Positions 38,761-58,284 of a stretch of 64,000 nt of DNA are shown here, one piece after another. A model generated the notes under the pieces. The model had not been told where the DNA came from. It did no database searches and saw only the letters and a program-made list of their open reading frames with translations. Every line of letters starts with the position of its first letter. Positions within the stretch are counted from its first letter, which is position 1. The position numbers were made by a program, and so were the translations under genes. This stretch comes from Pelagibacteraceae bacterium AG-426-G09 (lineage in GTDB: Bacteria; Pseudomonadota; Alphaproteobacteria; Pelagibacterales; Pelagibacteraceae), in contig QCNR01000005.1 of NCBI GenBank assembly GCA_003210075.1, positions 1-64,000 of the forward strand, read 5' to 3'.

Positions 38761-39702
38761 ATGAAAATTGGATTTATAGGACTCGGAAACGTTGGTGGAA
38801 AACTTGCAAGTAGCTTGTTTAGAAATAAATTTGATTTGACTGTGTTTGATTTAGACAAAAGTGTCGCTGATGAATTTAAATCAAAAGGTGTAAAAGTTGC
38901 AAATTCTGTTGGTGACCTTGTTAAAAATGTTGACGTTATTATCACATGTTTACCTTCCCCAAAAATTTGTTCAGAGGTTATGCTTAATGAAAATGGAATA
39001 TTAAAAAATATTTCAAAAGATAAAATTTGGATTGAAATGAGTACAACTGATCAAAAAGAAGTCAACAGACTAGGAAAACTAATCAAAGAAAAAAAAGCAA
39101 TTCCTTTAGAGGCTCCAGTAAGTGGGGGCTGCCATAGAGCAGCTACTGGAAATATAGCAATATTTGTTGGTGGTGAGAGAAAAACATTTGATAAAGTTCT
39201 TCCCTTATTAACTTGTATGGGAAGAAAAATACTTCATGTAGGAGAATTAGGTTCGGCTTCAATATTAAAAGTGATTACTAATTATTTAGCATCTGTACAT
39301 CTAGCCGCTTTAGGTGAAGCTTGGACTATTGCTAAAAAGCATAATTTAGATTTAAAAAAAGCTTTTGAGGGAATTAAGATTTCATCAGGTAATTCATTTG
39401 TTCACGAAACTGAAAGTCAAGTAATATTAAATGGTTCTTATAATATTAACTTTACTATGGATCTTGTTGAAAAAGATATGTCCCTTTTTAATAAACTTTC
39501 AAAAGATCAAGATATTGAATTAGAGATTGCTCCTTTTGTCTTGAATATTTTTAAGGACGCTAAAGAAAAATTTGGGTCTAGAGCTTGGTCATCAATGGTT
39601 GTTAAAAGATTAGAAGATAAATATGGTATAAGCTTTAGAGAAAAAGGATTCCCAGATGAGTTAGTTGATAATGAACCTGAGGAAAAAGGACAGGAGGTTT
39701 AA
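38761..39702 (+). CDS. 3-hydroxyisobutyrate dehydrogenase-family NAD(P)-dependent oxidoreductase
   Basis: A 313-residue beta-hydroxyacid dehydrogenase: NAD motif IGFIGLGNVGGKLA at 3-16, substrate-binding 'LEAPVSGGCHRAATG' near 116-130 and the catalytic lysine in 'ASILKVITNYLASVHLAALGEA' near 163-184. The family oxidises 3-hydroxyisobutyrate, tartronate semialdehyde-related acids, glyoxylate or similar. The C-terminal 15 residues are acidic and unusual. It stops at the base before the aldehyde dehydrogenase starts, so the two act together, oxidising an alcohol and then an aldehyde in an unknown pathway. Confidence 0.82.
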   Translation: MKIGFIGLGNVGGKLASSLFRNKFDLTVFDLDKSVADEFKSKGVKVANSVGDLVKNVDVIITCLPSPKICSEVMLNENGILKNISKDKIWIEMSTTDQKEVNRLGKLIKEKKAIPLEAPVSGGCHRAATGNIAIFVGGERKTFDKVLPLLTCMGRKILHVGELGSASILKVITNYLASVHLAALGEAWTIAKKHNLDLKKAFEGIKISSGNSFVHETESQVILNGSYNINFTMDLVEKDMSLFNKLSKDQDIELEIAPFVLNIFKDAKEKFGSRAWSSMVVKRLEDKYGISFREKGFPDELVDNEPEEKGQEV

Positions 39703-41133
39703 ATGTTAGATAAAAGAAAATTTTATATTAATGGTAAATGGGTATCTCCTTCAAAACCAAATGACCTGGAAGTAATAAATCCCTCAAACGAAGATCCCTA
39801 TGCTGTAATTTCACTTGGATCAAAAGAGGATATTGATAAAGCGGTCAAAGCCGCAAAAACTGCTTTTGAGAGTTGGAAAAAAACATCAAAAGAAGAAAGG
39901 CTTAAACTATTAGAAAAGCTATTAGAAGTTTATAAAAAAAGATTTAATGAAATGGCAAAAGCTATTTCGGATGAAATGGGTGCACCAATGGATTGGGCTA
40001 CAGAGGTTCAAACAGGATCAGGCCAAGCTCATTTAGAGGATTTCATTTTAAGATTAAAAGAATTTAATTTCGATGAACATTTTGACTCTAAATCAAATAA
40101 TCATATTTGTTATGAACCAATAGGTGTTTGTGGATTAATCACGCCATGGAACTGGCCTATTAATCAAATTGCATTAAAGGTTGTTCCTGCACTTGCAACT
40201 GGATGTACAATGATTTTAAAACCTTCAGAAATTGCTCCTATATCAGGAATGCTGTTTGCTGAAATGATCGATGAAGCTGGCTTTCCTGCGGGTGTTTTTA
40301 ATTTAATTAACGGAGATGGTGCTGGAGTTGGCACTCATATTTCAGGTCATCCTAATATTGATATGGTTTCATTTACAGGATCAACTAGAGCAGGAAAATT
40401 AATTTCTAAAAATGCCGCCGAAACAATTAAAAGAGTTTGCTTAGAGCTTGGAGGAAAAGGTGGAAATATAGTTTTTGCAGACTCTTATCCAAACGCTGTA
40501 AGAGATGGAATTAGAAATGTGATGAGCAATTCTGGTCAATCATGCGATGCACCAACTAGAATGCTTGTTGAGAAATCAATTTATCAAAGAGCTGTAGATG
40601 AAGCAGTGGATGAAGCAAATAAAATTCAAGTAGATGTAGGTTCAAAGAAAGGTGATCACATAGGTCCGGTTATTTCAAAAACTCAATACGATAAAATAAT
40701 TAATTTAATTGAAAGCGGTATATCAGAAGGAGCAACTTTAGCAGCAGGAGGGCCTGATAGACCAAATGGGTTAAATAAAGGATATTTCATTAAACCAACA
40801 ATCTTTACTGATGTTACAAATGATATGAGAATTGCAAAAGAAGAAATCTTTGGGCCTGTCTTATCAATTATTCCTTTCGAAAAAGAGGAGGAAGCAATTA
40901 AAATTGTTAATGATACTTCATATGGTTTAGGAAATTATCTACAAACAGAAAATAAAGAGAAAGCTCATAGGGTTGCAAAAGAACTTAGATCAGGTTGCGT
41001 TTATATTAATGGAAAAGGAGCTGATCCAGGAACGCCATTTGGTGGGTATAGACAATCAGGTAACGGACGTGAAGGTGGAGTTTGGGGTTTAGAAGAATAT
41101 TTAGAAGTAAAAACAGTAACAGGCTGGAAATAA
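39703..41133 (+). CDS. NAD(P)-dependent aldehyde dehydrogenase
   Basis: A 476-residue ALDH: 'TPWNWPINQIALKVVPALATGCTMILKPSE' near 147-176, 'FTGSTRAGK' near 226, the general-base Glu in 'LELGGKGGNIVF' (near 249) and the catalytic Cys in 'SGQSCDAPTRML' (near 283). It has a strong ribosome binding site (AGGAGG) inside the end of the preceding gene. The 'GGKGGN' in place of the usual GGKSPN is slightly unusual. Candidate substrates include betaine aldehyde or a semialdehyde formed by the upstream dehydrogenase. Confidence 0.88.
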   Translation: MLDKRKFYINGKWVSPSKPNDLEVINPSNEDPYAVISLGSKEDIDKAVKAAKTAFESWKKTSKEERLKLLEKLLEVYKKRFNEMAKAISDEMGAPMDWATEVQTGSGQAHLEDFILRLKEFNFDEHFDSKSNNHICYEPIGVCGLITPWNWPINQIALKVVPALATGCTMILKPSEIAPISGMLFAEMIDEAGFPAGVFNLINGDGAGVGTHISGHPNIDMVSFTGSTRAGKLISKNAAETIKRVCLELGGKGGNIVFADSYPNAVRDGIRNVMSNSGQSCDAPTRMLVEKSIYQRAVDEAVDEANKIQVDVGSKKGDHIGPVISKTQYDKIINLIESGISEGATLAAGGPDRPNGLNKGYFIKPTIFTDVTNDMRIAKEEIFGPVLSIIPFEKEEEAIKIVNDTSYGLGNYLQTENKEKAHRVAKELRSGCVYINGKGADPGTPFGGYRQSGNGREGGVWGLEEYLEVKTVTGWK

Positions 41134-41148
41134 CCTTATTAAATCATA

Positions 41149-41781
41149 ATGCATTTAATACATAGAGGTATTGTAAATAAAAATTATAAAGAAAACTTAC
41201 TAAATTCATTTAAAACTTCATTTAAAAAAGGCTATGGAATTGAAACAGATATTCATGCCACAAAAGATGGTGAGTTTGTTTGCTTTCATGACTTTACTTT
41301 AAAAAGAATTCATAAAATCAACAAAAGTATAAAAAACTTAAGTTATACCGAAATACTCAACTTAACTAAAAAAAATCCAATACCACTGCTAAAAGATTTA
41401 TTGAAACTTTCAAAAAATAAATTTGATTTATTTATAGAAATTAAACCACTTTTTTCTAATAAATTATTAAGAAAATTATTATATGAGACTAAAAAATATA
41501 AGAAATGTGTATTTATTTCTTTTAAAGAAAAAAATATTTATAGAATAATAAAAATAAAAAGAAAAACAAAAGTTGGACTTTCATATTCTCCATCAACTAG
41601 TATTAAAATAATAACAAAAAAATCTAAAAATAGAGATGTCAATTGTTTAATTTTAGATAAGTATTTTCTAAAAAGTAGTGAAATAAATAAAATAAAAAAA
41701 GAAAAATATTTTTATACAATTAAAAATAAAAAGGATTTTAAGAAATATTCAAATAGTAATCTTATTTTTGAAAATTTATAA
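41149..41781 (+). CDS. Glycerophosphodiester phosphodiesterase family protein
   Basis: A 210-residue GDPD-fold protein with the metal and catalytic set HRG (5-7), ENLLNSF, 'GIETDIHATKDGEFVCFHDFTLKR' (Glu, Asp and His near 34-50) and 'DLFIEIKP' near 97. The family cuts glycerophosphodiesters to glycerol-3-phosphate and the head-group alcohol. In this betaine and choline locus it could free choline from glycerophosphocholine; no signal peptide is visible, so it would act in the cytosol. The last third is Lys-rich and degenerate compared with typical 240-250 residue members. Confidence 0.75.
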   Translation: MHLIHRGIVNKNYKENLLNSFKTSFKKGYGIETDIHATKDGEFVCFHDFTLKRIHKINKSIKNLSYTEILNLTKKNPIPLLKDLLKLSKNKFDLFIEIKPLFSNKLLRKLLYETKKYKKCVFISFKEKNIYRIIKIKRKTKVGLSYSPSTSIKIITKKSKNRDVNCLILDKYFLKSSEINKIKKEKYFYTIKNKKDFKKYSNSNLIFENL

Positions 41782-42912
41782 ATTTTTTAAATAATTAAGT
41801 CTTCCGATAATTTCATCTCTATCCATATAATAGCCCTGTAAATGTCTATTACCTGAATTTGGATCAAATTCGGTTCTGCCGTGAAGCAATCTTCTGTTAT
41901 TAAAGCAAAAAATATCACCTGGCTCTAGTCTAAAATTAATTTGAAATTTACTGTCGTGTAATAAATTTCCAAATCTGTGATGTGCTTTATATACTTTTTC
42001 CATTATATCTGGGTGACAATCAAGAGTATCAAGTGTTGCAATACTGTATCTAATATCATTATAATCTCCATCCTTTGTTAAAGATATTGCTGTACCATAA
42101 ACGCTTCTTATCGCCTCTTGGGTATAATCTTTATCTCTAAATTTTAATGGAACATTAACAAGTATATCAAAAATTTCTTTTTCATTTTTTCTCAAATAAT
42201 CTGCTACCGCAAATGCATCTACAGCTGAAGAGTCTCCTCCTTTAGCAGAATTAACTAAACAATGTAAAAACTGATATCCTGGAGGATTTTCAAACCAAGG
42301 TAAATCCATATGATTTCTTAATGCGTGAGCTGTATATGCTGAATTATTTGGTTTTGGAATATTTATTACTTCAAATGGTGTTTTAAAAAAAGTTTCTCTA
42401 GTATGGCTTATTTTATTTAAAACAGGTAAAGCAGACTTTTCGTCTGTTGGAGCGTTTTTAATTATTGCTATTCCCTTATGGTGCAAAAGTTCTAACCATT
42501 TAATTAAACCAACATTAGTTTCCATTATTTCATTATGATTTATAATTATTGTCTCTAAATTTTTTTCAAGTGAGCAATCCCATAAATCATAAGGAGAAAC
42601 ATATTTCTTTTTATTTTTTATAGTATAACAGTTTTCTCTTAACCAATTTGGATCATAGTAACTTGTATGATTGCCTTCACTCCATTCTACTTCTAATTTA
42701 CCATCTTTGTTTATATTTAAATTTTTTGCACTTAATTTTTCAGAGACATTTAAAATGCTAAACATTCTATGTCTAGAATCTGGATCGTGAGCTGTTGGAC
42801 AATTATCTCTTAACCACATGTAATTAAATTGACTTTTAATCCCATCATTCCATTCAACTTCTAAAGAAGTTCCATTCTTTGATACATTCTTAATATAAAA
42901 ATTTTCACTCAT
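41776..42912 (-). CDS. Gamma-butyrobetaine hydroxylase-like 2OG/Fe(II) dioxygenase (BBOX/TmpA family)
   Basis: A 378-residue protein with an N-terminal DUF971-type domain (about 10-95, 'YMWLRDNCP' motif) and a C-terminal TauD/TfdA catalytic domain. The facial triad is His201-x-Asp203 (NHMDLPWFENPPGYQ) and His344 (LLHGRTEF). This architecture is that of gamma-butyrobetaine hydroxylase, which makes carnitine, and of TmpA, which hydroxylates 2-trimethylaminoethylphosphonate. Carnitine-degrading genes and a TmpB-like gene are both in this locus, so either reaction fits. The zinc cysteine cluster of human BBOX is only partly present (Cys38). Confidence 0.8.
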   Translation of the reverse strand: MSENFYIKNVSKNGTSLEVEWNDGIKSQFNYMWLRDNCPTAHDPDSRHRMFSILNVSEKLSAKNLNINKDGKLEVEWSEGNHTSYYDPNWLRENCYTIKNKKKYVSPYDLWDCSLEKNLETIIINHNEIMETNVGLIKWLELLHHKGIAIIKNAPTDEKSALPVLNKISHTRETFFKTPFEVINIPKPNNSAYTAHALRNHMDLPWFENPPGYQFLHCLVNSAKGGDSSAVDAFAVADYLRKNEKEIFDILVNVPLKFRDKDYTQEAIRSVYGTAISLTKDGDYNDIRYSIATLDTLDCHPDIMEKVYKAHHRFGNLLHDSKFQINFRLEPGDIFCFNNRRLLHGRTEFDPNSGNRHLQGYYMDRDEIIGRLNYLKNL

Positions 42913-42986: not shown

Positions 42987-43015
42987 TTGAACTTTTTTAT
43001 AAATCAATGTCTAAT
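42987..43015 (+). promoter_or_regulatory. Probable sigma-70 promoter of proX
   Basis: TTGAAC (42987-42992) and TCTAAT (43010-43015) are separated by 17 bp. Transcription would begin near 43022, which excludes the earlier in-frame ATG at 43007 and supports the start at 43052 behind GGAGGG. Confidence 0.6.
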
Positions 43016-43051
43016 GCTCTTTGTTATATAACTTTTATATGGAGGGAACAT

Positions 43052-44071
43052 ATGAGAAATCTTAAGAATATTCTCCTAACAACTGTTTTAGCATCTATGC
43101 TTGCGGTGTTTACTACATCAGCAAATGCAAAATGCAAAGCTAGATTGGGAGACTTTGATTGGTCTAGTGCTAACATTCATACAGCAATAACTACATTTAT
43201 TCTTGAAAAAGGATATGGTTGTGAAGTTTCTGTTACAAAAGGAAGTACTACTCCAATAATGGCCGCTCATTATGACGGTCAATTAGATGTTATTACTGAA
43301 GTTTGGTATGACAATATTATTGGTAATTATAAGCCTCACGAAGAAGCAGGTACAATTATCCATATGGGTACAAATACACCAGACTCTCAGCAAGCATTCT
43401 ATGTAGATAAAGCTACTGCTGATAAATACAATTTAAAGTCTGTTGAAGATATGAAAGATCCAAAAATAGCTGCGCTATTTAAAGATCCAGAAGATCCTTC
43501 AAAAGGAAGAATGACTAGCTGTATTTCAGGTTGGACTTGTTACACAGTAAACTTGGTAAAACAAAAAGAGTATGGTCTAGATAAATACTATACTAACTTT
43601 GACCCAGGTTCAGGTGGTGCATTAGATGCTGCGATAGCAGGTGCATTTGCAAAGAAAAAACCAATCTTTACATACTACTGGGCACCAACTGGTTTAATGG
43701 GTAAAGTTGATCTAGTAAGATTAACAGAGCCTAAATTTAATCAAAAATGTTGGGATGATATGTCTGTAGTTGTAGAAGACATCAAAGCTAATGGTCCAGA
43801 CGCTTACAAACCTTCTTGTGCATGCGAATATAGAGATATGGCTTTAACTAAGTCTGTTCTTGCAACATGGGCAAAATCTCATCCAAAAGAAAATGAGTTC
43901 ATTGGAAAATATACAATACCAACAGCTGTTGTGAACAAAATGTTGGCATTTTATGAAGATGAGTCAGGTGGTGATATGGAAGCTACTGCAATAGAGTTCT
44001 TAAAATCGGAAACTATGTGGAAAGACTGGGTACCAGCTGATGTTGCTAAGAAAGTTTCTGCAGCATTATAA
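43052..44071 (+). CDS. proX: Glycine betaine/proline-type ABC transporter substrate-binding protein
   Basis: A 339-residue periplasmic protein with a signal peptide (cleavage after TSANA, about 26). The mature sequence is of the OpuAC/ProX type: 'LGDFDWSSANIHTAITTFILEKGYGCEV' near 32-59, 'DVITEVWYDNI' and aromatic residues suited to a quaternary-amine cage ('GWTCYTVNLV', 'TYYWAPTG'). It has several Cys that could form disulfides. It captures glycine betaine or related betaines such as DMSP or carnitine for ProWV. The GGAGGG site at 43041 fixes the start. A terminator hairpin follows. Confidence 0.85.
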   Translation: MRNLKNILLTTVLASMLAVFTTSANAKCKARLGDFDWSSANIHTAITTFILEKGYGCEVSVTKGSTTPIMAAHYDGQLDVITEVWYDNIIGNYKPHEEAGTIIHMGTNTPDSQQAFYVDKATADKYNLKSVEDMKDPKIAALFKDPEDPSKGRMTSCISGWTCYTVNLVKQKEYGLDKYYTNFDPGSGGALDAAIAGAFAKKKPIFTYYWAPTGLMGKVDLVRLTEPKFNQKCWDDMSVVVEDIKANGPDAYKPSCACEYRDMALTKSVLATWAKSHPKENEFIGKYTIPTAVVNKMLAFYEDESGGDMEATAIEFLKSETMWKDWVPADVAKKVSAAL

Positions 44072-44090
44072 TCACTAAATAAAATATAAT

Positions 44091-44114
44091 GAGAGAGCCC
44101 TTCGGGGCTCTTTC
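44091..44114 (+). terminator. Intercistronic terminator-like hairpin after proX
   Basis: GAGAGAGCCC (44091-44100) pairs with GGGCTCTTTC (44105-44114) across a TTCG tetraloop, giving a 10-bp stem with one G-U. A short T-rich stretch follows. It separates proX from proW and probably lowers expression of the downstream genes. Confidence 0.8.
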
Positions 44115-44132
44115 TTTAATTAAAACCGACAT

Positions 44133-45164
44133 ATGGAAGTACTAAAGAAAAATAAAAAAATAATTTTTAACGTTGGATTGTTATTCGTTTTCGTATGGTT
44201 ATTAATAACTAGTTACAGTCAATCAAAAAGAAAACCTGAAAATATTAGTGAATTATTAAATGATTTTTCTTGGCTTGGAGGTAAGTGGCCTAAGTGGTTA
44301 GATTTACCATTAATGAATTGGATTAATGTTGGTTTTAAAGCACTAAATGAAAAATATGGTTATATATTTGAAGCTATAAACAATGTTCTTTTATATATGT
44401 TGATGCTTGTAAAGAATTTTTTAATTCAAGCACCGTGGCCATTAGTAATACTTGGAGTAGTTGTTTTAACTTATTTTGCGAGTGGAAGAAAAATTGGAAC
44501 AACTGTATTTGTTGGTTTCTGTACATTTTTTATAGGTTTTCTTCACCCAATATTTTGGCAAAAAGCAATTGAAACAACTGCAATAATGTTAATTGGAATT
44601 TTTCTTTGTGTTATAGCTGGAATTCCTTTGGGAATAGCAATGGCAAGAAGTGCTAGAACAAGAAATGTAATTTTACCTGTTTTAGATTTAATGCAAACAA
44701 TTCCAAGTTTTTGCTACTTAATTCCAGGTATAATGTTATTTGGACTAGGGGCTGTTCCAGCAATTATTGCAACTTTTATTTATGCTGTCCCACCTCTTGT
44801 TAGACTTACAGATTTAGGAATAAGATTAGTTGATAAAGAAGTTATAGAAGCAGCTGATGCTTTTGGTGCTAGCAAGAAACAAAAATTATTAGGTGTTCAA
44901 TTACCTTTAGCTTTACCGAATATTATGCAAGGCATTAACCAATGTACTATGATGGCATTAGCAATGGTAGTAATTGCATCCATGATAGGAACTAGAGGTT
45001 TAGGTGATGAGGTATTGTTAGGCTTACAACAATTAAATGTGGGTAGAGCTGCAGAAGCTGGTATTGCAATAGTGCTATTAGCTATTGTTTTAGATAGAAT
45101 AACTCAATCTTATGGAGAAACTTTACAAGAGAGGACTACACCTGCTAAAAAGGAGAAAAAATAA
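44133..45164 (+). CDS. proW: Glycine betaine ABC transporter permease
   Basis: A 343-residue ProW-type permease. It has an N-terminal helix (about 10-27), a soluble linker (30-80), then a membrane core with about six helices. The permease loop is 'EAADAFGASKKQKLLGVQLPLALPNIM' near 244-270, and 'DLMQTIPSFCYLIPGIMLFGLG' near 185-206 is conserved in ProW/OpuAB. It partners with ProV, whose ATG overlaps its stop by one base (TAATG). Confidence 0.9.
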   Translation: MEVLKKNKKIIFNVGLLFVFVWLLITSYSQSKRKPENISELLNDFSWLGGKWPKWLDLPLMNWINVGFKALNEKYGYIFEAINNVLLYMLMLVKNFLIQAPWPLVILGVVVLTYFASGRKIGTTVFVGFCTFFIGFLHPIFWQKAIETTAIMLIGIFLCVIAGIPLGIAMARSARTRNVILPVLDLMQTIPSFCYLIPGIMLFGLGAVPAIIATFIYAVPPLVRLTDLGIRLVDKEVIEAADAFGASKKQKLLGVQLPLALPNIMQGINQCTMMALAMVVIASMIGTRGLGDEVLLGLQQLNVGRAAEAGIAIVLLAIVLDRITQSYGETLQERTTPAKKEKK

Positions 45165-46189
45165 TGTCTAAGATAGAAATAAATAACGTTTACAAAATTT
45201 TTGGCAATAATCCTAATTCCATTTTACCAATGGTAAAGGATGGAGCAACTAAAGAGCAAGTGCTTGAAGAAACTGGTCATACTGTTGGTTTAGATAATGT
45301 TTCTCTTAAAATTGAAGAAGGAGAAACATTTGTATGTATGGGGCTATCAGGTTCGGGAAAATCAACATTAATTAGACATTTAAATAGATTAATTGACCCA
45401 ACTGATGGAGAAATTTTAATTGAAGGTACAAATGTAATGAGCTTGAACACTGAGAGCTTAATTGATTTTAGACGACACAAAATGAGCATGGTCTTTCAAA
45501 GATTTGGTTTGTTTCCTCATAAGACTGTTTTGCAAAATGTAGGTTATGGTCTTGAAATGCAAGGAATTGATGAAAATAAAAGAAATAGTGTAGCGATGGA
45601 TAAAATCCAAGCAGTTGGATTAAATGGATTTGAAAACCAATTTCCTGCACAATTGTCTGGGGGCATGCAGCAAAGAGTTGGTCTCGCAAGAGCATTAGCT
45701 ACAGATACTGATATAATGTTAATGGACGAAGCATTTTCAGCATTAGACCCGTTAATTAGAAGCGATATGCAGAAGCAACTTTTAGATTTACAAGCAGAAT
45801 TAAAGAAAACTATAGTATTTATTACTCACGATTTGGATGAATCATTGAGACTGGGAGATCACATAGGGATTTTAAATGCTGGAAAATTAGTTCAAGTTGG
45901 AACTCCTGTTGAAATTATAATGAATCCTGCTGATGACTATGTAGAAGCATTTGTTAAAGATGTTAACAGAGCAAAAGTAATTAAAGCAAAAATTATTATG
46001 ATACCTGCTGCTCAAGCGAATGGCATAGATAAATCAAATTTAATTAAAGTTAATGAGGATCAATTTATTGAGGAATTTTTACCTCAAGTAGTATGTAATA
46101 ATGCAAATTGTGAAGTAGTTGATAGACAAGGTAACACAAAAGGGTACATAACTAATAAGGAATTACAGAAATCATTATCAAAGTCATAA
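45164..46189 (+). CDS. proV: Glycine betaine ABC transporter ATP-binding protein
   Basis: A 341-residue ATPase. It has the ProV/OpuAA-type N-terminal extension (about 1-45), Walker A GLSGSGKSTLIRHLNRL near 63-79, signature LSGGMQQRVGLARALA near 163-178, Walker B 'IMLMDEAFSALDPLIR' and the switch His of 'FITHDLDESLRLGD'. A short C-terminal regulatory domain (about 280-341) is CBS-like but incomplete. It energises uptake of glycine betaine-type solutes. Confidence 0.92.
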   Translation: MSKIEINNVYKIFGNNPNSILPMVKDGATKEQVLEETGHTVGLDNVSLKIEEGETFVCMGLSGSGKSTLIRHLNRLIDPTDGEILIEGTNVMSLNTESLIDFRRHKMSMVFQRFGLFPHKTVLQNVGYGLEMQGIDENKRNSVAMDKIQAVGLNGFENQFPAQLSGGMQQRVGLARALATDTDIMLMDEAFSALDPLIRSDMQKQLLDLQAELKKTIVFITHDLDESLRLGDHIGILNAGKLVQVGTPVEIIMNPADDYVEAFVKDVNRAKVIKAKIIMIPAAQANGIDKSNLIKVNEDQFIEEFLPQVVCNNANCEVVDRQGNTKGYITNKELQKSLSKS

Positions 46190-46192
46190 TTA

Positions 46193-46978
46193 ATGACTAC
46201 TCAATCATTGAAAAATAAAAAAATAGTTATTTCTGCTGGTGCATCTGGCATTGGACTTGCAACTACAAAAATCTGTTTACAGAGGGGTGCTACAGTTTTT
46301 GTTTCTGATATCAATGAAAAATTTATCAACAAATTAAGAAAAAATTTTAAAAACAAAAAACTTTTTATTTATCATTGTGATGCCTCAAATGAGAATGATG
46401 TAAATGACCTATTTGATAAAATTAAAAAAAAAACAAATAAAATTGATGCTTTAATAAATAACGTTGGAATAGCAGGCCCAACTGGAACAATAGAAAAACT
46501 AAGCTCTTTTGATTGGGAAAATACTTTAAAAGTAAATGTTATCAGTCATTTTTATTTTACAAAAAATGCAATTCCACTTTTAAAAAAAAATAAAGGTGGA
46601 ACCATAATCAACCTTTCATCTGGTGCTGGTATAATGGGTTTCCCTCTAAGGTCTCCATATGCTGCAAGTAAATGGGCAATTGTTGGTGTTACAAAAACTC
46701 TAGCTATGGAGCTCGGTAAGTTTAAAATTAGAGTTAATGCAATTTGTCCTGGAACAATCAAGGGTGACCGAATGGTAAGAGTAATAAGAGATAAGGCAAA
46801 GTTTTTAAAAACTTCAAAAAAATCGATTGAAAAAGAATTTATTTCAATGGCATCGATGAATAGTTGGATATATGAAGAAGATATTGCACAAATGTGTAGT
46901 TTTCTAATTTCAAAAGATGCAGAAAGAATTTCAGGTCAAATAATTGGTGTTGATGGAAATGCTACGCGTTTAGATTAA
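46193..46978 (+). CDS. Short-chain dehydrogenase/reductase
   Basis: A 261-residue classical SDR: cofactor motif SAGASGIGLATTK (about 14-26), 'NNVGIAGPTG' near 89, the catalytic Ser of 'NLSSGAG' and the YxxxK motif in 'SPYAASKWAIVG'. The end 'ISGQIIGVDGNATRLD' is typical. It is 3 bp behind proV, so it probably oxidises or reduces something imported by or made from the ProXWV cargo. Its last 4 bases overlap the convergent BKACE gene. The substrate is unknown. Confidence 0.85.
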   Translation: MTTQSLKNKKIVISAGASGIGLATTKICLQRGATVFVSDINEKFINKLRKNFKNKKLFIYHCDASNENDVNDLFDKIKKKTNKIDALINNVGIAGPTGTIEKLSSFDWENTLKVNVISHFYFTKNAIPLLKKNKGGTIINLSSGAGIMGFPLRSPYAASKWAIVGVTKTLAMELGKFKIRVNAICPGTIKGDRMVRVIRDKAKFLKTSKKSIEKEFISMASMNSWIYEEDIAQMCSFLISKDAERISGQIIGVDGNATRLD

Positions 46979-47862
46979 AAATGCTTAGTCAGTTTTAATT
47001 TTTCTCTAGTTTCAGAAGGTGTCATTATAGAAATTCCAAGATCACTTACAATTCTAATTGCTTTTTCAACTAATTGAGCATTGGTTGCAAGTTTTCCTTT
47101 TTCTAAATATAAATTATCTTCTAAACCAACTCTTGGATTTCCTCCCATTATTGCGGTTTGAGCAACAAATGGCATTTCATTTCTTGAGATTGCAAATCCA
47201 GACCAGACAGCATTTTCTGGCATTATATCTTTCATTGCTTGCATTGCTAAAGGTGTAGCAGGAGCTCCCCAAGGGATACCTAAACACATTTGAAACATTG
47301 GTGGATCGTCTAATAAACCTTCTTTATATAATTGTGCACCGAACCACATATTACCCAAATCAAAAGCTTCTATTTCAGGTTTAACTTTAATTTCTTTTAA
47401 TCTTTTTGCAGCTTTTCTTAAATCATTTGGAGTATTAACTGTAATAACAGAGCTATCACCAAAGTTCAGAGTTCCACAATCGAGAGTACAAATCTCGGGT
47501 AAAAATTGTTCTGCATTAGCAATTCTCTCCATAACATTTGCCATATCTGTCATTGGTCCAAACTCTAATGGATTTTTCCCTTGTCCAATATCTAAATCAC
47601 CACCCATGCCTGTAGTTAAATTTAACACTACATCAGTTCCACTAGAACGAATTTTATCTACTACTTCTTTATACAATTCTAGACGTCTACTAGGAGTTCC
47701 ATCCTCTTCTCTAACGTGAATATGTGCAATTGCGGCCCCTGCTTTTGCAGCTTCTATAGCTGCATTTGCGATTTGATCAGGAGTTTTTGGTAAATCTGGA
47801 TGTTTAGATGCTGTATCTCCAGATCCAGTAACAGCGCATGAGATAAATACTTTATTGTTCAT
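46975..47862 (-). CDS. BKACE-family beta-keto acid cleavage enzyme, candidate dehydrocarnitine cleavage enzyme
   Basis: A 295-residue zinc enzyme of the BKACE (DUF849) family: the start 'KVFISCAVTGSGDTASKHPDLP', zinc ligands in 'AIAHIHVREEDG' (His46/His48 type), 'LTTGMGGD' and the Glu of 'VGLEDNLYLEKGK' near 250. BKACE enzymes cleave a beta-keto acid with acetyl-CoA to give acetoacetate and a new acyl-CoA. With a carnitine dehydrogenase (56494), a hotdog thioesterase (47912, divergent by 49 bp) and a betaine transporter nearby, 3-dehydrocarnitine is the likely substrate, giving betainyl-CoA. Confidence 0.82.
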   Translation of the reverse strand: MNNKVFISCAVTGSGDTASKHPDLPKTPDQIANAAIEAAKAGAAIAHIHVREEDGTPSRRLELYKEVVDKIRSSGTDVVLNLTTGMGGDLDIGQGKNPLEFGPMTDMANVMERIANAEQFLPEICTLDCGTLNFGDSSVITVNTPNDLRKAAKRLKEIKVKPEIEAFDLGNMWFGAQLYKEGLLDDPPMFQMCLGIPWGAPATPLAMQAMKDIMPENAVWSGFAISRNEMPFVAQTAIMGGNPRVGLEDNLYLEKGKLATNAQLVEKAIRIVSDLGISIMTPSETREKLKLTKHF

Positions 47863-47911
47863 TTTAATTATTAGATTTATACTATTAAATTAAGTCTTGG
47901 GAAATAAAAAT

Positions 47912-48379
47912 ATGTCAGTACATGTTGCAAATGTAAAAATTAAATCGGAATGGACAGATTATAATAAACATCTAAACATGGCCTATTATGTTTTAGTATT
48001 TGATCAGGCATGGGAAATTTTACTTGAAAAATTTGGTATGGGTGAAACTTCAGCTAAAGCAAGTGGTATGAGCACAATGGTTGTTGAAACAAATACAACT
48101 TATAACAATGAGGTTGGTGAAGGTAAGGAAGTTGAGATAATTTTAACTTTTTTTGATCACGATACAAAAAGATTACATTACAAATTAGAAATGATAGATA
48201 AAGAAACAAATAAATTATCTTCAACAATTGAAATGTTGTCTTTGCATGTTGATTTAAATAAAAGGAAAGTAGCTGAGTTTGATGAAGAAAGAACTAACCT
48301 TATGGATGTATTTATTAGTGAGAATAAAGAAAAATTTAAAAGTGATAATTTAAAATTTACAGGTAAACTAAAAAAATAA
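47912..48379 (+). CDS. Hotdog-fold acyl-CoA thioesterase, candidate betainyl-CoA thioesterase
   Basis: A 155-residue 4HBT-type hotdog protein: 'EWTDYNKHLNMAYYVLVFDQAWEIL' near 13-37 carries the D-x-x-x-H-x-N motif of the family's active site. I use the ATG at 47912 rather than the in-frame TTG 15 bases earlier. In carnitine degradation a thioesterase of this type hydrolyses betainyl-CoA to glycine betaine. The gene is divergent from the BKACE gene and heads a plus-strand operon with the TauD, HD and GMC genes. Confidence 0.78.
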   Translation: MSVHVANVKIKSEWTDYNKHLNMAYYVLVFDQAWEILLEKFGMGETSAKASGMSTMVVETNTTYNNEVGEGKEVEIILTFFDHDTKRLHYKLEMIDKETNKLSSTIEMLSLHVDLNKRKVAEFDEERTNLMDVFISENKEKFKSDNLKFTGKLKK

Positions 48380-48380
48380 T

Positions 48381-49209
48381 ATGCAAGTAAATTTATTATC
48401 TGGAGCATTAGGAGCTGAAGTAAAAGGGATTGATTTAAAGGACTCCTCTGACAAAAACTGGGAAATAGTTAACAATCTGATGCTTGAACACAAAGCACTT
48501 TTCTTTAGAGATCAAGATATTACTTGTGAAGAACAGATTAATTTAGCAAAAAAGTTTGGGCCACTTGAAAGACACGTCTATGTTAAAGGCTTGAAAGACC
48601 ATCCAGAAATTTTAAGAATTGTAAAAGGAGCTGAAGAGAAACATCAATGGGGTGAAACTTGGCATACTGATGTAAGTTACAATTCAAAACCAACTAAAGT
48701 TATTATTTTAAGATCTAGAAAAATTCCTCCTGTTGGTGGAGATACTATGTTTTCAAATATGGAGATTGCATATGAAACTCTTGATGAAGAAATTAAAAAA
48801 AAAAATTGAGGGAAAAAAAGCAATTCATAGCTCATTAGGTGCCGCAGCATTTGTAGATAAATATACAGAGATGGAAGGAAATGGAAATTTAGATGAATAC
48901 TCAAATGAACATCCAATGGTGAGAATTCATCCAGAAACAAAGAAAAAAATTCTTTATGTGAATTCAATGTATACAAAAAAAATAATAGGGATTGATAAAA
49001 AAGAAAGCGATGAAATATTAAATAAGATTTTTGAACATCAAGAAAGATTGGATTTTACATGTAGATTTAAATGGACAGAAAATGCGGTTGCTATTTGGGA
49101 TAACAGAAGTACTCAACATCAGGGTTTAACTGATTTTTTTCCTGGTAGAGGCCTTGGTCATGAAAGAGTAATGGATCGAATTGCAATTGAAGGAGATCAT
49201 CCAAAGTAA
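48381..49209 (+). pseudogene. TauD/TfdA-family 2OG dioxygenase, interrupted by a frameshift at a poly(A) tract
   Basis: The first part (48381-48809, 142 codons) has the TauD N-terminus with the His95-x-Asp97 motif (GETWHTDVSY). At a run of 11 A (48795-48805) the frame is lost and a TGA follows at 48807. From the same run the next frame carries the expected remainder to 49209: 'IHPETKKKILYVN', the second iron His in 'WDNRSTQHQGLTDFF' and the 2OG Arg in 'HERVMDRIAIEGD'. With 10 A it would be a normal TauD of about 275 residues. Either the gene is broken, the assembly has a one-base error, or slippage on the A-run restores the protein. Substrate unknown; neighbours suggest a betaine or phosphonate. 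Confidence 0.8.
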
Positions 49210-49746
49210 ATGGATATTATTGAGAAAATTATAAGTAACTTTAAAAACAATAAATCACTTTATATTGGAGAAAATGTAACAATTGCTGAACATATGATTC
49301 AGTCTGCAATGATGGCTGAAAAATCAAAAAGTAAGGGTAATTTGGTGTGTTCATGTTTATTGCACGATTATGGTCATTTCATATTAGATGATCCTGATGA
49401 ATTGGTTAGAAATAATCAAGACGGCAAACACGAAGATATAGGTTATGAGTATTTAAAAAGATTTTTTAGGAAAGAGATAGTTGAACCTATTAAACATCAC
49501 GTTACAGCTAAAAGATATCTTGCCAGGGATAAAAAATATTACAATCGGTTATCTAAAGCATCTGTAGTAAGTCTTAAACTTCAAGGAGGCCTGTTAAACA
49601 ACAAAGATGCAAAGGTATTTGAAAAAGAAGAGTTCTTCAAAGATGCAATAAAACTCAGAAAGTTTGACGAAGCTGCAAAAAAAATAGGCGTCAAAATAAA
49701 AGATATCATTCAGTATAAAGATTTATTAAAAGCATCGCTAAAATGA
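49210..49746 (+). CDS. HD-domain mixed-valent diiron oxygenase, PhnZ/TmpB-like
   Basis: A 178-residue HD-domain protein. The pattern of the C-P-bond-cleaving oxygenase PhnZ is complete: Tyr18 and Glu21 (SLYIGENVT), His28 (AEHMIQ), His52-Asp53 (LLHDYGHF), His74 (KHEDIG), His97 (HHVTAKRYL) and Asp153 (RKFDEAAK), plus 'LSKASVVSLKLQGG'. PhnZ and TmpB use a diiron centre and O2 to split 1-hydroxyphosphonates into a carboxylate and phosphate; TmpB makes glycine betaine from hydroxylated trimethylaminoethylphosphonate. It starts on the base after the TauD stop and overlaps the GMC gene by 4 bases. The family is firm; the substrate is inferred from the betaine context. Confidence 0.82.
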   Translation: MDIIEKIISNFKNNKSLYIGENVTIAEHMIQSAMMAEKSKSKGNLVCSCLLHDYGHFILDDPDELVRNNQDGKHEDIGYEYLKRFFRKEIVEPIKHHVTAKRYLARDKKYYNRLSKASVVSLKLQGGLLNNKDAKVFEKEEFFKDAIKLRKFDEAAKKIGVKIKDIIQYKDLLKASLK

Positions 49747-51323
49747 ATTATGATTATTTAATAATTGGTGCAGGATCAGCAGGATGCGTACTTGCAAATA
49801 GACTAACAGAAAATGGTAAAAATAATGTAGCTATATTTGAAGCTGGAAAGCCTAGTGACATTTGGAAAGTTAAAATGCCCCTAGCAATTTTGTATACAAT
49901 GCATGATCCAAAGTATAATTACAAATATTACTCAGAACCAGAGCCTCATTTACATAATAGAAGATTATTTTGTCCAAGAGGTAAAATGATTGGTGGATGT
50001 TCTGCTCATAATGGAATGGTATTTGTAAGAGGAAATCCAAACGATTATGAGAGATGGGCATCTTTTGGATTAGACGACTGGTCTTATGAAAGAGTTCTTC
50101 CTTATTTTAAAAAAATTGAAACATGGTCTGAAGGTGAAAATGACTACAGAGGTGGAAATGGAATACTACCAGTAAACCAATCTAAAAATAAAAATCCTTT
50201 ATTTAAAGCATTTATCGAGTCAGCTGGTGAAGCTGGTTATAAAATAAATGATGATATGAATGGTAAAGAACAAGAAGGTTTTGGAATGTACGATGTTACT
50301 ATTCATAAAGGTGAAAGAGCTAGTGTTTCTAAATATTATTTAAATCCTGCAAAAAAAAGAAAAAACCTCAAGGTATTTACGGAGTCTTTTGTAGAAAAAA
50401 TTATTTTTGATGGCAATAAAGCTATTGGGATTGAGGTCAAAATTAAAAATAAAGTTGAAAAAATATATGCAACTAAAGAAGTAATTTTAAGTGGTGGAGC
50501 TATAAACTCTCCTCAATTACTTATGTTGTCTGGAATTGGTCCAAGCCAACACTTAAAAGATAAAGGAATTAAAGTTGTTCAAAGTTTAGAGGGAGTTGGA
50601 AAAAACCTACAAGATCACTTAGAAACCTACGTTCAACAAGAGTGTAAAACTAAAGATACTTTATATTCTTATGTTAATAAAATTAATATGATTAGAATAG
50701 GCATTCAATGGTTTTTAAATAGAAGTGGTCCTTGCTCTACCTCTTTTTTAGAAGCAGGTGGCTTTTGTAAATCATCTTCTGAAAGAGAGTATCCAAATAT
50801 TCAATTTCATTTTTTTCCTGCTTTTGTAATTGACCATGGATTAGTTGATCCAGATAGACATGGTTATCAATTACATGCGAGTCCAAACCATCCAAAAAGC
50901 AGAGGTCATATAACTTTAAATACTTCTAATCCTTATGATTATCCAAAAATTCAATTTAATTATCTTGAACATGAAGATGATTTAAAACAAACAATTGAAA
51001 GTATTCATGTAGCAAGAAAAATTTTAGGACAAAACTCTTTAAAACCATTTGCAGGAAAAGAGATTGGACCAGGAGAAAATGCTCAAACTAAAGAGATATT
51101 TGAAGAATACATTCGTTCTAAAGCTGAGACTGCTTATCACCCATCTTGTACTTTAAAAATGGGAGTAGATAATATGGCTGTTGTTGATCAAAAACTGAAA
51201 GTTCATGGTGTAGAAAATTTAAGAGTAGTTGATGCTTCTGTTATGCCTGAAATTACAAGCGGAAATTTAAATGCTCCAACGCTAATGATTGCTGAAAGAG
51301 CATCAGAATTTATTTTAAACTAA
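49743..51323 (+). CDS. GMC-family FAD oxidoreductase, choline dehydrogenase-like
   Basis: A 526-residue GMC flavoprotein: FAD motif YLIIGAGSAGCVLANRL (4-20), 'PRGKMIGGCSAHNGMVFVRGNPNDYERW' near 79-106 and the C-terminal active site 'AETAYHPSCTLKMG' (His near 463). It resembles BetA-type choline dehydrogenases, which oxidise choline to betaine aldehyde, but related enzymes use other alcohols. It overlaps the HD gene by 4 bases, so it belongs to the same operon. Coupled with the aldehyde dehydrogenase at 39703 it could give glycine betaine. E. coli BetA is slightly longer (about 556). Confidence 0.82.
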   Translation: MNYDYLIIGAGSAGCVLANRLTENGKNNVAIFEAGKPSDIWKVKMPLAILYTMHDPKYNYKYYSEPEPHLHNRRLFCPRGKMIGGCSAHNGMVFVRGNPNDYERWASFGLDDWSYERVLPYFKKIETWSEGENDYRGGNGILPVNQSKNKNPLFKAFIESAGEAGYKINDDMNGKEQEGFGMYDVTIHKGERASVSKYYLNPAKKRKNLKVFTESFVEKIIFDGNKAIGIEVKIKNKVEKIYATKEVILSGGAINSPQLLMLSGIGPSQHLKDKGIKVVQSLEGVGKNLQDHLETYVQQECKTKDTLYSYVNKINMIRIGIQWFLNRSGPCSTSFLEAGGFCKSSSEREYPNIQFHFFPAFVIDHGLVDPDRHGYQLHASPNHPKSRGHITLNTSNPYDYPKIQFNYLEHEDDLKQTIESIHVARKILGQNSLKPFAGKEIGPGENAQTKEIFEEYIRSKAETAYHPSCTLKMGVDNMAVVDQKLKVHGVENLRVVDASVMPEITSGNLNAPTLMIAERASEFILN

Positions 51324-56493: not shown

Positions 56494-57432
56494 CTACTTC
56501 CTTATTTTAATCTCGTATTTTTTTCTCATCTTTTGTAAGTTGAGCAAATACTCGTCCCTAATTTTTGCAATTGTTGCAACAGATTTTCCTTTAGCTTGCT
56601 TTCTTGTGCCAGATATTACTCGGTTTGATAATTGTTTTGAGAGTTTTGGAGCTTTAAGTTTTGTCCATGGAAGTTTTAAAGCAGGCCCAAATTGTTCTAA
56701 CATGTGTTTCATTCCAGCACTTCCACCAGCTAAATGAAATGTAAGAAAAGTACCCATCAACGACCATCTCATTCCTGGTCCATCTTCAATAGCTCTATCT
56801 AAATCTTTAGTTGACGCATAACCTTCATTTACAATGTGAAGTGCTTCTCTCCAAAGTGCTTCTTGAAGTCTATCAGATAAAAAGCCTGGTAATTCCTTTT
56901 TTAACATTATTGGATTCATAGATATAGATTCATAAAATTGTTTAGCCTTATTTAGAGTCTTCATGCTTGTTTTTTTTCCTGGAACAATTTCTACGCCAGG
57001 CAACATATAAACTGGATTAAAAGGATGGGCAATTATTGCTCTTGAGGGATTTTTGCATTTTGAATAAATCTTTGATGGCAGTAGTCCCGACGAGCTCGAA
57101 GAAATAATTGCATTAGATTTAGAATATTTACCAATTAACTCCATTAGTTTAGTTTTTAATTTATAATTTTCTGGAGCGCACTCTTGAATAAAATCTGCAT
57201 TTTTTAATGCATCTTCTATATCTGTAACATAACTAAAATTCGTTAAATTTAATTTATTTTTATTAAATAGTTTTTTTACAAATGGCCATGCTCTTTTAAC
57301 TTCTAAAATAACTTTTTTCTTTAATTTTGGGTCTGTATCATAAACAATAACTTTTTTATTATGTGCAAGAAATCTTACAATCCATCCTGATCCTATTACG
57401 CCAGCACCGATTACAGCAATTTTATTTATCAT
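56494..57432 (-). CDS. L-carnitine 3-dehydrogenase-like 3-hydroxyacyl-CoA dehydrogenase
   Basis: A 312-residue 3HCDH-family enzyme: NAD motif VIGAGVIGSGWIVRFLA (6-22), 'ADFIQECAPENYKLK' near 93-107, 'SSSSSGLLPSKI' and 'HPFNPVYMLPGVEIVPGKKTS' near 137-157, with the catalytic His before PFNP, then 'GPGMRWSLMGTFLTFHLAGG' near 228-247. The 'GWIVRFL' and 'GMRWSxMG' features and length fit L-carnitine dehydrogenase, which makes 3-dehydrocarnitine for the BKACE enzyme at 46975. Generic 3-hydroxyacid dehydrogenase is the alternative. It starts on the base after the previous gene's stop. Confidence 0.8.
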   Translation of the reverse strand: MINKIAVIGAGVIGSGWIVRFLAHNKKVIVYDTDPKLKKKVILEVKRAWPFVKKLFNKNKLNLTNFSYVTDIEDALKNADFIQECAPENYKLKTKLMELIGKYSKSNAIISSSSSGLLPSKIYSKCKNPSRAIIAHPFNPVYMLPGVEIVPGKKTSMKTLNKAKQFYESISMNPIMLKKELPGFLSDRLQEALWREALHIVNEGYASTKDLDRAIEDGPGMRWSLMGTFLTFHLAGGSAGMKHMLEQFGPALKLPWTKLKAPKLSKQLSNRVISGTRKQAKGKSVATIAKIRDEYLLNLQKMRKKYEIKIRK

Positions 57433-58284
57433 TTAATCAGCTAATCCATCTGATCTAGCTATATTTCTTTCAATATGTATTGGTAAAACTTTTCCATATA
57501 TAGCTTTTGAATGTTCTGGGGTGTTTACTCTCCATGGGTCTAATACATAAGCAGGTATACACATGTATCTTGATTTCTTACCCTCTACTTTTGTTACCCT
57601 ATGCAATGTAAATCTTCCTTTAAATATTTGAAGATCGCCCGGTTCCAATTTTAATTGTTTTACTCTTGTTCTGTCACCATTTATAACTTTTTTAACTTCA
57701 TCAAAGTTTTCGTTGCCTGGTTCTCGAATATTAGGACAATATTCGAATATTCCACCTTTTTCAGGCTTCTGAATCATTAAACTTAAAGTAAATTCACAAC
57801 TATCAAAATGCCAAGGAAGTATTCCATTTGGCTTCATTACATTATAAGCATGACATGCTAGAGGATCAGCCCATCTATAAATTGGTGACACACCAAGACA
57901 TGCAGATACAAAATTCAACAATTCATTTGTCTCATATAAATATTTCATTTCAGATTTTTTTGGAAAGCAATCAGAATTTAAATAACCATTATATCTATTC
58001 ATAAAAATTCTTTTTGGATGATCTTTGGGTAAAGTTGCGTCATCTTTTGAGTACAAATAAGCATTTATATTTTCTTTTGACATATAAACTTCATCTAATT
58101 GTTTTTCTAATTCTGAATTCATTATTTCTAATGATTTTGGCAAAATAAAATTGGGTATTGTTGAACAACTAGTTTCATCTAGCTCTTTTTTACATTTTTT
58201 AATAAGGTTTTTAATTGAAGGGGAATTTAAATTGTGAATTGGGTATTTATCTAAATCAACTATAGATTTAAGTCTTTCGTTCAC
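57433..58284 (-). CDS. HalD/BesD (ArpA)-like 2OG/Fe(II) hydroxylase
   Basis: A 283-residue cupin-type oxygenase. The iron motif is His-x-Asp in 'LPWHFDSCEFTLSLMIQ' near 176-192, with a second His in 'FKGRFTLHRVTKVEG' near 234 and Arg following. It resembles the HalD/BesD amino-acid halogenase family, in which halogenases have Gly in place of the Asp. The Asp is present here, so hydroxylation is expected rather than halogenation. It overlaps the nucleotidyltransferase gene by 4 bases. The substrate may be an amino acid or amine; unknown. Confidence 0.65.
   Translation of the reverse strand: MNERLKSIVDLDKYPIHNLNSPSIKNLIKKCKKELDETSCSTIPNFILPKSLEIMNSELEKQLDEVYMSKENINAYLYSKDDATLPKDHPKRIFMNRYNGYLNSDCFPKKSEMKYLYETNELLNFVSACLGVSPIYRWADPLACHAYNVMKPNGILPWHFDSCEFTLSLMIQKPEKGGIFEYCPNIREPGNENFDEVKKVINGDRTRVKQLKLEPGDLQIFKGRFTLHRVTKVEGKKSRYMCIPAYVLDPWRVNTPEHSKAIYGKVLPIHIERNIARSDGLAD

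Follow-up and report, generated by a model that had tools for sequence, protein, structure and literature searches.

A PhnZ/TmpB-type HD-domain oxygenase in a SAR11 betaine/carnitine island, with a possible role in releasing glycine betaine from a phosphonate

SAR11 bacteria outnumber every other group of heterotrophs in the surface ocean. In the window (the whole 64,000-nucleotide stretch of SAR11 DNA analyzed here), a gene for an HD-domain protein lies in a betaine and carnitine locus, which raises the question of whether its product cleaves a phosphonate and, if so, which one. The original prediction was that a PhnZ/TmpB-type HD oxygenase completes a route from 2-trimethylaminoethylphosphonate to glycine betaine, after hydroxylation by a BBOX-like dioxygenase encoded at 41776 or by an adjoining TauD-family enzyme. 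The HD reading frame, the BBOX-like gene and the genes for betaine-type import (ProXWV) were all found as described, as was the TauD-family gene, albeit frameshifted in this assembly (Table 1). While phnZ-like genes from SAR11 are not new in themselves, their setting in a betaine island, the exchange of partners and a SAR11 TmpA pair are. In a limited literature search, no paper turned up on TmpA in SAR11, on a SAR11 HD protein in a betaine/carnitine locus or on the TauD/GMC operon of such a protein. Surveys have included Pelagibacterales phnZ, which accounted for 45% of the marine phnZ sequences in one of them (PMC9381506). Other work divides phnZ into subclades, among them ones for methylphosphonate and trimethylaminoethylphosphonate (PMC8316502), and finds the 2-aminoethylphosphonate (2-AEP) type to be rare (PMC8316502; PMC10574752). 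The surveys disagree widely on the frequency of phnZ-like genes.

Table 1. Features of the HD locus in the window, with the evidence for each assignment
Feature	Position	Strand	Evidence and remarks
Beta-hydroxyacid-dehydrogenase-like gene	38761..39702	+	Orthologue directly 3' of TmpA in L128
Aldehyde dehydrogenase, betaine-aldehyde-dehydrogenase-like	39703..41133	+	Orthologue near TmpA and HD in L128
BBOX-like 2-oxoglutarate dioxygenase, probable gamma-butyrobetaine hydroxylase	41776..42912	-	Profiles, PDB match, tree; not TmpA by profile
ProX-ProW-ProV quaternary-ammonium ABC transporter genes	43007..46189	+	Similarity of the set; 85 bits for ProX (cut-off not reached)
BKACE-family beta-keto acid cleavage enzyme, probable 3-dehydrocarnitine cleavage	46975..47862	-	NF052387, 245 bits (cut-off 382 not reached); carnitine role from context
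Thioesterase, resembling the thioesterase portion of carnitine 3-dehydrogenase fusions	47897..48379	+	First operon gene
TauD-family Fe(II)/2-oxoglutarate dioxygenase gene, frameshifted	48381..49209	+	ORFs 48381-48809 and 48733-49209
HD-domain diiron oxygenase, PhnZ/TmpB type	49210..49746	+	178 aa, ATG start; family profiles, PDB sequence matches, residue table, model, fold search
GMC oxidoreductase, choline-dehydrogenase-like	49743..51323	+	526 aa; NF002550, 740 bits (cut-off 605); 45% identical to E. coli BetA
L-carnitine-dehydrogenase-like protein	56494..57432	-	NF005471, 360 bits (cut-off 414); adjoins BKACE in related genomes

In profile searches, the HD protein matched TIGR03276 (phosphonate degradation HD-domain oxygenase) with an E-value of 6e-49 and 166 bits (curated cut-off, 214.6), the TmpB profile NF049941 with 1e-46 and 158.6 bits (cut-off, 300) and the PhnZ1 profile NF052439 with 2e-37 and 128.7 bits (cut-off, 300). 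Since all three scores lie below the curated cut-offs, the protein is an equivalog of none of these families by NCBI's standard. Its best solved relatives in a PDB sequence search were TmpB (6npa, 3e-32) and PhnZ (4mlm, 5e-26). The iron ligands and the Tyr/Glu pair of PhnZ had been read from the sequence beforehand, and every one of these residues aligned with PhnZ and TmpB: Y18, E21, H28, H52/D53, H74, H97 and D153 correspond to Y24, E27, H34, H58/D59, H80, H104 and D161 in PhnZ numbering. The diiron ligand pattern H...HD...H...H...D is thus present (H28, H52, D53, H74, H97 and D153), and H56, K101, S118, Q125, G126, G127 and R150 of the family are also retained. Among 39 SAR11 rows labelled TauD-HD-GMC, there was no exception at the ligands or at H56, K101, S118, Q125 and R150. 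As judged from the alignment, this agreement is far beyond chance. The lid motif YxxE reads Y18-I-G-E21 and is invariant in the SAR11 rows that cover the region; this loop distinguishes PhnZ and TmpB from MIOX, in which it is absent (PMC8177086). An AlphaFold2 model built from an alignment of 51 sequences had a mean pLDDT of 94.4, and in a Foldseek search of the PDB PhnZ and TmpB were its sole matches at E<0.001 (TM 0.85-0.89, E ~1e-11); the next match had E=0.27, and MIOX-type HD proteins were far off. The fold and the lid argue against an ordinary phosphohydrolase. Profiles, predicted fold and residues place the protein among the C-P-cleaving diiron oxygenases, in the PhnZ/TmpB family. It would very probably cleave the C-P bond of a 1-hydroxyalkylphosphonate to yield a carboxylate and phosphate.

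Phylogenetic analysis of 97 HD proteins placed the SAR11 relatives of the HD protein in one clade (47 rows, support 99). Within this clade, HD adjoins GMC and mostly also TauD in a large group; in a second, smaller one, from genera g3 and g6, it lies beside TmpA or alone. The deep branches of the tree are weak. As to a position with TmpB, looked for in the original prediction, a sister relationship of the SAR11 HD proteins to the TmpB core is compatible with the data (AU p=0.45), but nesting of the TmpA-linked SAR11 HD proteins within the core is rejected (AU p=2e-6). No TmpA partner lies beside the HD gene of the window, and a TmpA profile search of its genome (87% complete) yielded no gene over the cut-off of 400; members of the same clade do lie divergently beside TmpA genes in two other SAR11 genomes (L128/L024 and L129/L023). 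The TmpA proteins of these two genomes scored 541.9 and 531.7 bits on the TmpA profile (equivalog cut-off, 400), are 55-57% identical to the Leisingera enzyme and nest in the TmpA clade (support 100). The TmpA proteins there are of the core type and the HD proteins are not, so that genes of different ancestry were apparently brought together; as these HD proteins fall outside the TmpB core, simple co-inheritance does not explain the pairing. TmpA probably carries out the 1-hydroxylation in these two genomes.

Several related arrangements were observed. In other Alphaproteobacteria (L070, L071 and L123), TmpA-HD is followed by a GBBH-like (gamma-butyrobetaine hydroxylase-like) dioxygenase and a BKACE gene, indicating that groups other than SAR11 also have TmpAB beside carnitine degradation. 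SAR11 genomes repeatedly encode a second HD protein, "HD2", which is distant from the first (~185 aa; TIGR03276 score, 36-42 bits) and in two genomes (L222:2684-4335 and L131:8824-10475) adjoins a BBOX-like gene that scores 334-343 bits for TmpA and 252-262 bits for GBBH, thereby forming another 2OG-oxygenase/HD pair; in the genome of the window, HD2 is encoded at G000:C1:33344 (L221), and that BBOX gene is present with a broken frame on a different contig (G000:C19:7302-8367, L127). Other SAR11 genomes (L028-L030) carry a separate PhnZ-like HD protein, outside the clade of the window protein, in an island with PhnCDE, PhnX, ArsC-like and MIP genes. Islands with a PhnZ-like HD, PhnCDE, MFS, ArsC-like and MIP channel genes occur in the SAR11 loci L133 and L141 (G035 and G140), and L141 has phosphonoacetaldehyde hydrolase in addition. 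A scan of viral contigs found no relative, and plasmid records held distant HD proteins only (at most ~40% identity).

Given the families encoded around the HD gene, the simplest reading is that the locus would convert gamma-butyrobetaine through carnitine, dehydrocarnitine and betainyl-CoA to betaine. Betaine, carnitine or demethylase genes were present in most HD loci with enough flank; exceptions include L048 and L050-L054. Two further genes were seen in such surroundings: in the SAR11 carnitine loci L057 and L213-L215, the BKACE region is separated from the thioesterase by a gene for a RipC/CitE-like C-C lyase, and window positions 57433-58284 encode a HalD/WelO5-like 2OG protein (HalD score, 43 bits), orthologues of which accompany the carnitine locus.

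The HD protein is best interpreted as having a TmpB-like role, because its clade pairs with genuine TmpA in two SAR11 genomes, and the residues at positions 25, 29 and 57, which are near the iron ligands in the sequence, are of the same type. These positions are I/M, M and F in the SAR11 clade (with one T at 25) and M/I, M and F/Y in TmpA-paired HD proteins, whereas other HD proteins mostly have Q, A/G and L. The reference set for TmpA pairing consisted of TmpB itself and HD proteins paired with a TmpA of at least 46% identity. Outside SAR11, M29 was found in all 20 such proteins and in 3 of 27 others, a count that ignores relatedness. Position 54 is Tyr or Phe in the SAR11 clade only, so that the HD pocket is not identical to that of TmpB. 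Our best guess, drawn from the pairing of the sister group with TmpA, the surrounding betaine/carnitine genes and positions 25, 29 and 57, is a quaternary-ammonium substrate, most likely 1-hydroxy-2-(trimethylammonio)ethylphosphonate; the product, glycine betaine, would enter the surrounding betaine/carnitine enzymes. We put the chance of such a trimethylammonium substrate at about even, and C-P cleavage and this substrate taken together are just as evenly poised.

The same chemistry could act on 1-hydroxy-2-aminoethylphosphonate, the activity of PhnZ, with glycine as the product. SAR11 is auxotrophic for glycine, and a glycine product would help. The HD fold is equally close to PhnZ, in which the Glu of YxGE contacts the amino group of the substrate (PMC8177086), and 2-AEP is the commonest marine phosphonate (PMC9381506). 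However, positions 25, 29 and 57 of the HD protein are of the other type, its sequence is nearer to TmpB, no PhnY-type gene lies beside it, and other SAR11 genomes have the separate PhnZ-like HD with PhnCDE and PhnX. We regard the 2-aminoethyl substrate as unlikely.

The operon order is thioesterase-TauD-HD-GMC: 1 nt separates the first two genes, HD follows TauD without a gap, and GMC overlaps HD by 4 nt. This HD-GMC overlap of 4 nt occurred in 48 of 48 junctions read (a few loci being the same contig read twice). The frameshift in the TauD gene of the window lies at an A11 run (48795-48805) that is one base longer than the frame allows. The gene is intact in nearly all relatives (275-277 aa), L014 being another split copy. 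A programmed frameshift was considered, but a comparable A-run is missing at the site in the relatives that were read (AAAAAGAAAATC), which makes an assembly error or recent damage likelier. The TauD-family protein retains the Fe ligands and the equivalents of E. coli TauD H70, V102, R266 and R270, and has W90/G91 at the D94/N95 site; the intact protein of L034 scored 215.7 bits on the taurine dioxygenase profile NF007104 (cut-off 313 not reached). Operon structure makes TauD a plausible partner of HD, and we tentatively favor it, at rather less than an even chance, as the best candidate for the 1-hydroxylation in this genome. Alternatively, the hydroxylated phosphonate might be taken up as such.

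Among 197 genomes of the family, 16 had both an HD gene of the SAR11 clade and TauD, 7 had HD only, 9 had TauD only and 165 had neither (Fisher p ~3e-12, which ignores relatedness and shared location). In eight of the nine TauD-only genomes, which are 94-99% complete, TauD directly precedes GMC, mostly in the same carnitine island. HD-GMC without an adjoining TauD was found in three cases (G069, G123 and L057), and no TauD orthologue was detected anywhere in G069 or G123. HD-bearing and HD-free rows are intermixed in the TauD tree. Since each occurs without the other, TauD as an obligate partner of HD is rejected; TauD apparently has a separate function and HD is an optional insert, which makes HD a movable module for C-P cleavage within betaine/carnitine islands. 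Outside SAR11, no TauD-HD neighbors were found by eye among the matches listed for 385 alphaproteobacterial genomes. One rather improbable explanation is that sulfur analogues of betaine (e.g., trimethyltaurine or choline-O-sulfate) are handled by an older pathway of TauD and GMC, into which HD was inserted, extending the same hydroxylase to the phosphonate analogue. Hydroxylation alone would free sulfite or sulfate and leave betaine aldehyde for GMC, whereas the hydroxylated phosphonate would be stable and need C-P cleavage by HD, so that one hydroxylase would serve sulfur and phosphorus analogues. The gene arrangement and the retained anion-site residues of TauD are what suggest this scheme.

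TauD might instead hydroxylate methylphosphonate, and HD cleave hydroxymethylphosphonate to formate and phosphate, as in the PhnY/PhnZ1 pathway known in Prochlorococcus (PMC6581173). In a SAR11 subgroup (L050-L052 and L054), FdhD and formate dehydrogenase genes lie upstream of TauD-HD-GMC, where they replace the carnitine genes, in keeping with a formate product. Against this, no formate dehydrogenase was seen in the other loci, the HD protein scores 30 bits less on the PhnZ1 profile than on that of TmpB, and the betaine/carnitine neighborhood would be left unexplained. We consider this substrate improbable.

The proposal that gene 41776 encodes the TmpA supplying HD was not supported. It draws some support from the location of the gene in the HD locus, from its best PDB match, which is TmpA (169.6 bits versus 159 for human BBOX), and from a topology test in which forcing it together with the TmpA clade costs 34 log units (AU p=0.063). 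In the best tree, however, the protein groups with SAR11 proteins only, apart from the TmpA clade, and it is only ~29-30% identical to the true SAR11 TmpA. Its 268 bits on the TmpA profile NF049936 are below both the cut-off of 400 and its 317 bits on the gamma-butyrobetaine dioxygenase profile TIGR02409, the best score among three related families (cut-off of 414.75 not reached). Moreover, this type of gene occurs without an HD of the SAR11 clade in L216-L218, and the carnitine genes around it offer a simpler role. TmpA function for 41776 was rejected on these grounds and is very unlikely.

Least probable of all is a non-phosphonate substrate from the carnitine/choline pathway for a merely borrowed PhnZ fold, to which the lack of a phosphonate transporter or any other phosphonate gene near HD, the TauD-GMC unit without HD in eight genomes and the unique Tyr at position 54 would be congenial, but which conflicts with the invariance of all PhnZ/TmpB active-site residues (the K/S/Q/R set included), the TmpA pairing in relatives and the remoteness of MIOX-type HD proteins.

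As for the phosphonate-to-betaine route as a whole, a PhnZ/TmpB-type HD protein in a betaine/carnitine locus, from a clade paired elsewhere with genuine TmpA, is upheld, and the assignment of 41776 as its TmpA is not. If this SAR11 clade does convert a trimethylammonium phosphonate to glycine betaine, part of the genes counted as 2-AEP degradation would serve another substrate, and phosphonate use would be linked with the breakdown of osmolytes and not with phosphate transport.

Among known systems, the Pelagibacterales "phnZ" of marine surveys probably includes the SAR11 HD clade, GORG single-cell genomes having been used there; in the sections concerned, these genes are assigned to 2-AEP, and a betaine-locus context or partner is not reported (PMC9381506). 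The TauD-family neighbor shares the residues listed above with E. coli TauD and differs at W90/G91 and in its score (216 bits versus a cut-off of 313); among solved structures, aryloxyphenoxypropionate dioxygenases and PlaO1 come closest to this neighbor. With the hydroxymethylphosphonate dioxygenases PhnZ1/GmPhnZ, the HD protein has the superfamily in common, but it reaches 128.7 bits against a cut-off of 300 and has no adjoining PhnY. PhnZ of HF130_AEPn_1 (PDB 4mlm/4n71) has the same fold (TM ~0.88), ligands and lid, but is 35% identical, differs at positions 25/29/57 and is partnered by a different dioxygenase, PhnY, a member of the PhyH family. TmpB of Leisingera caerulea (PDB 6npa) differs in identity (~40%), profile score (158.6 bits for HD versus a cut-off of 300), the position of HD outside the TmpB core clade, Tyr54 in HD and the neighbors, which are TauD/GMC instead of TmpA; it shares with the HD protein the fold, the metal ligands, the YxGE lid, the I/M25-M29-F57 pattern and the betaine context, and the likeness extends to the SAR11 sister HD proteins that lie beside true TmpA.
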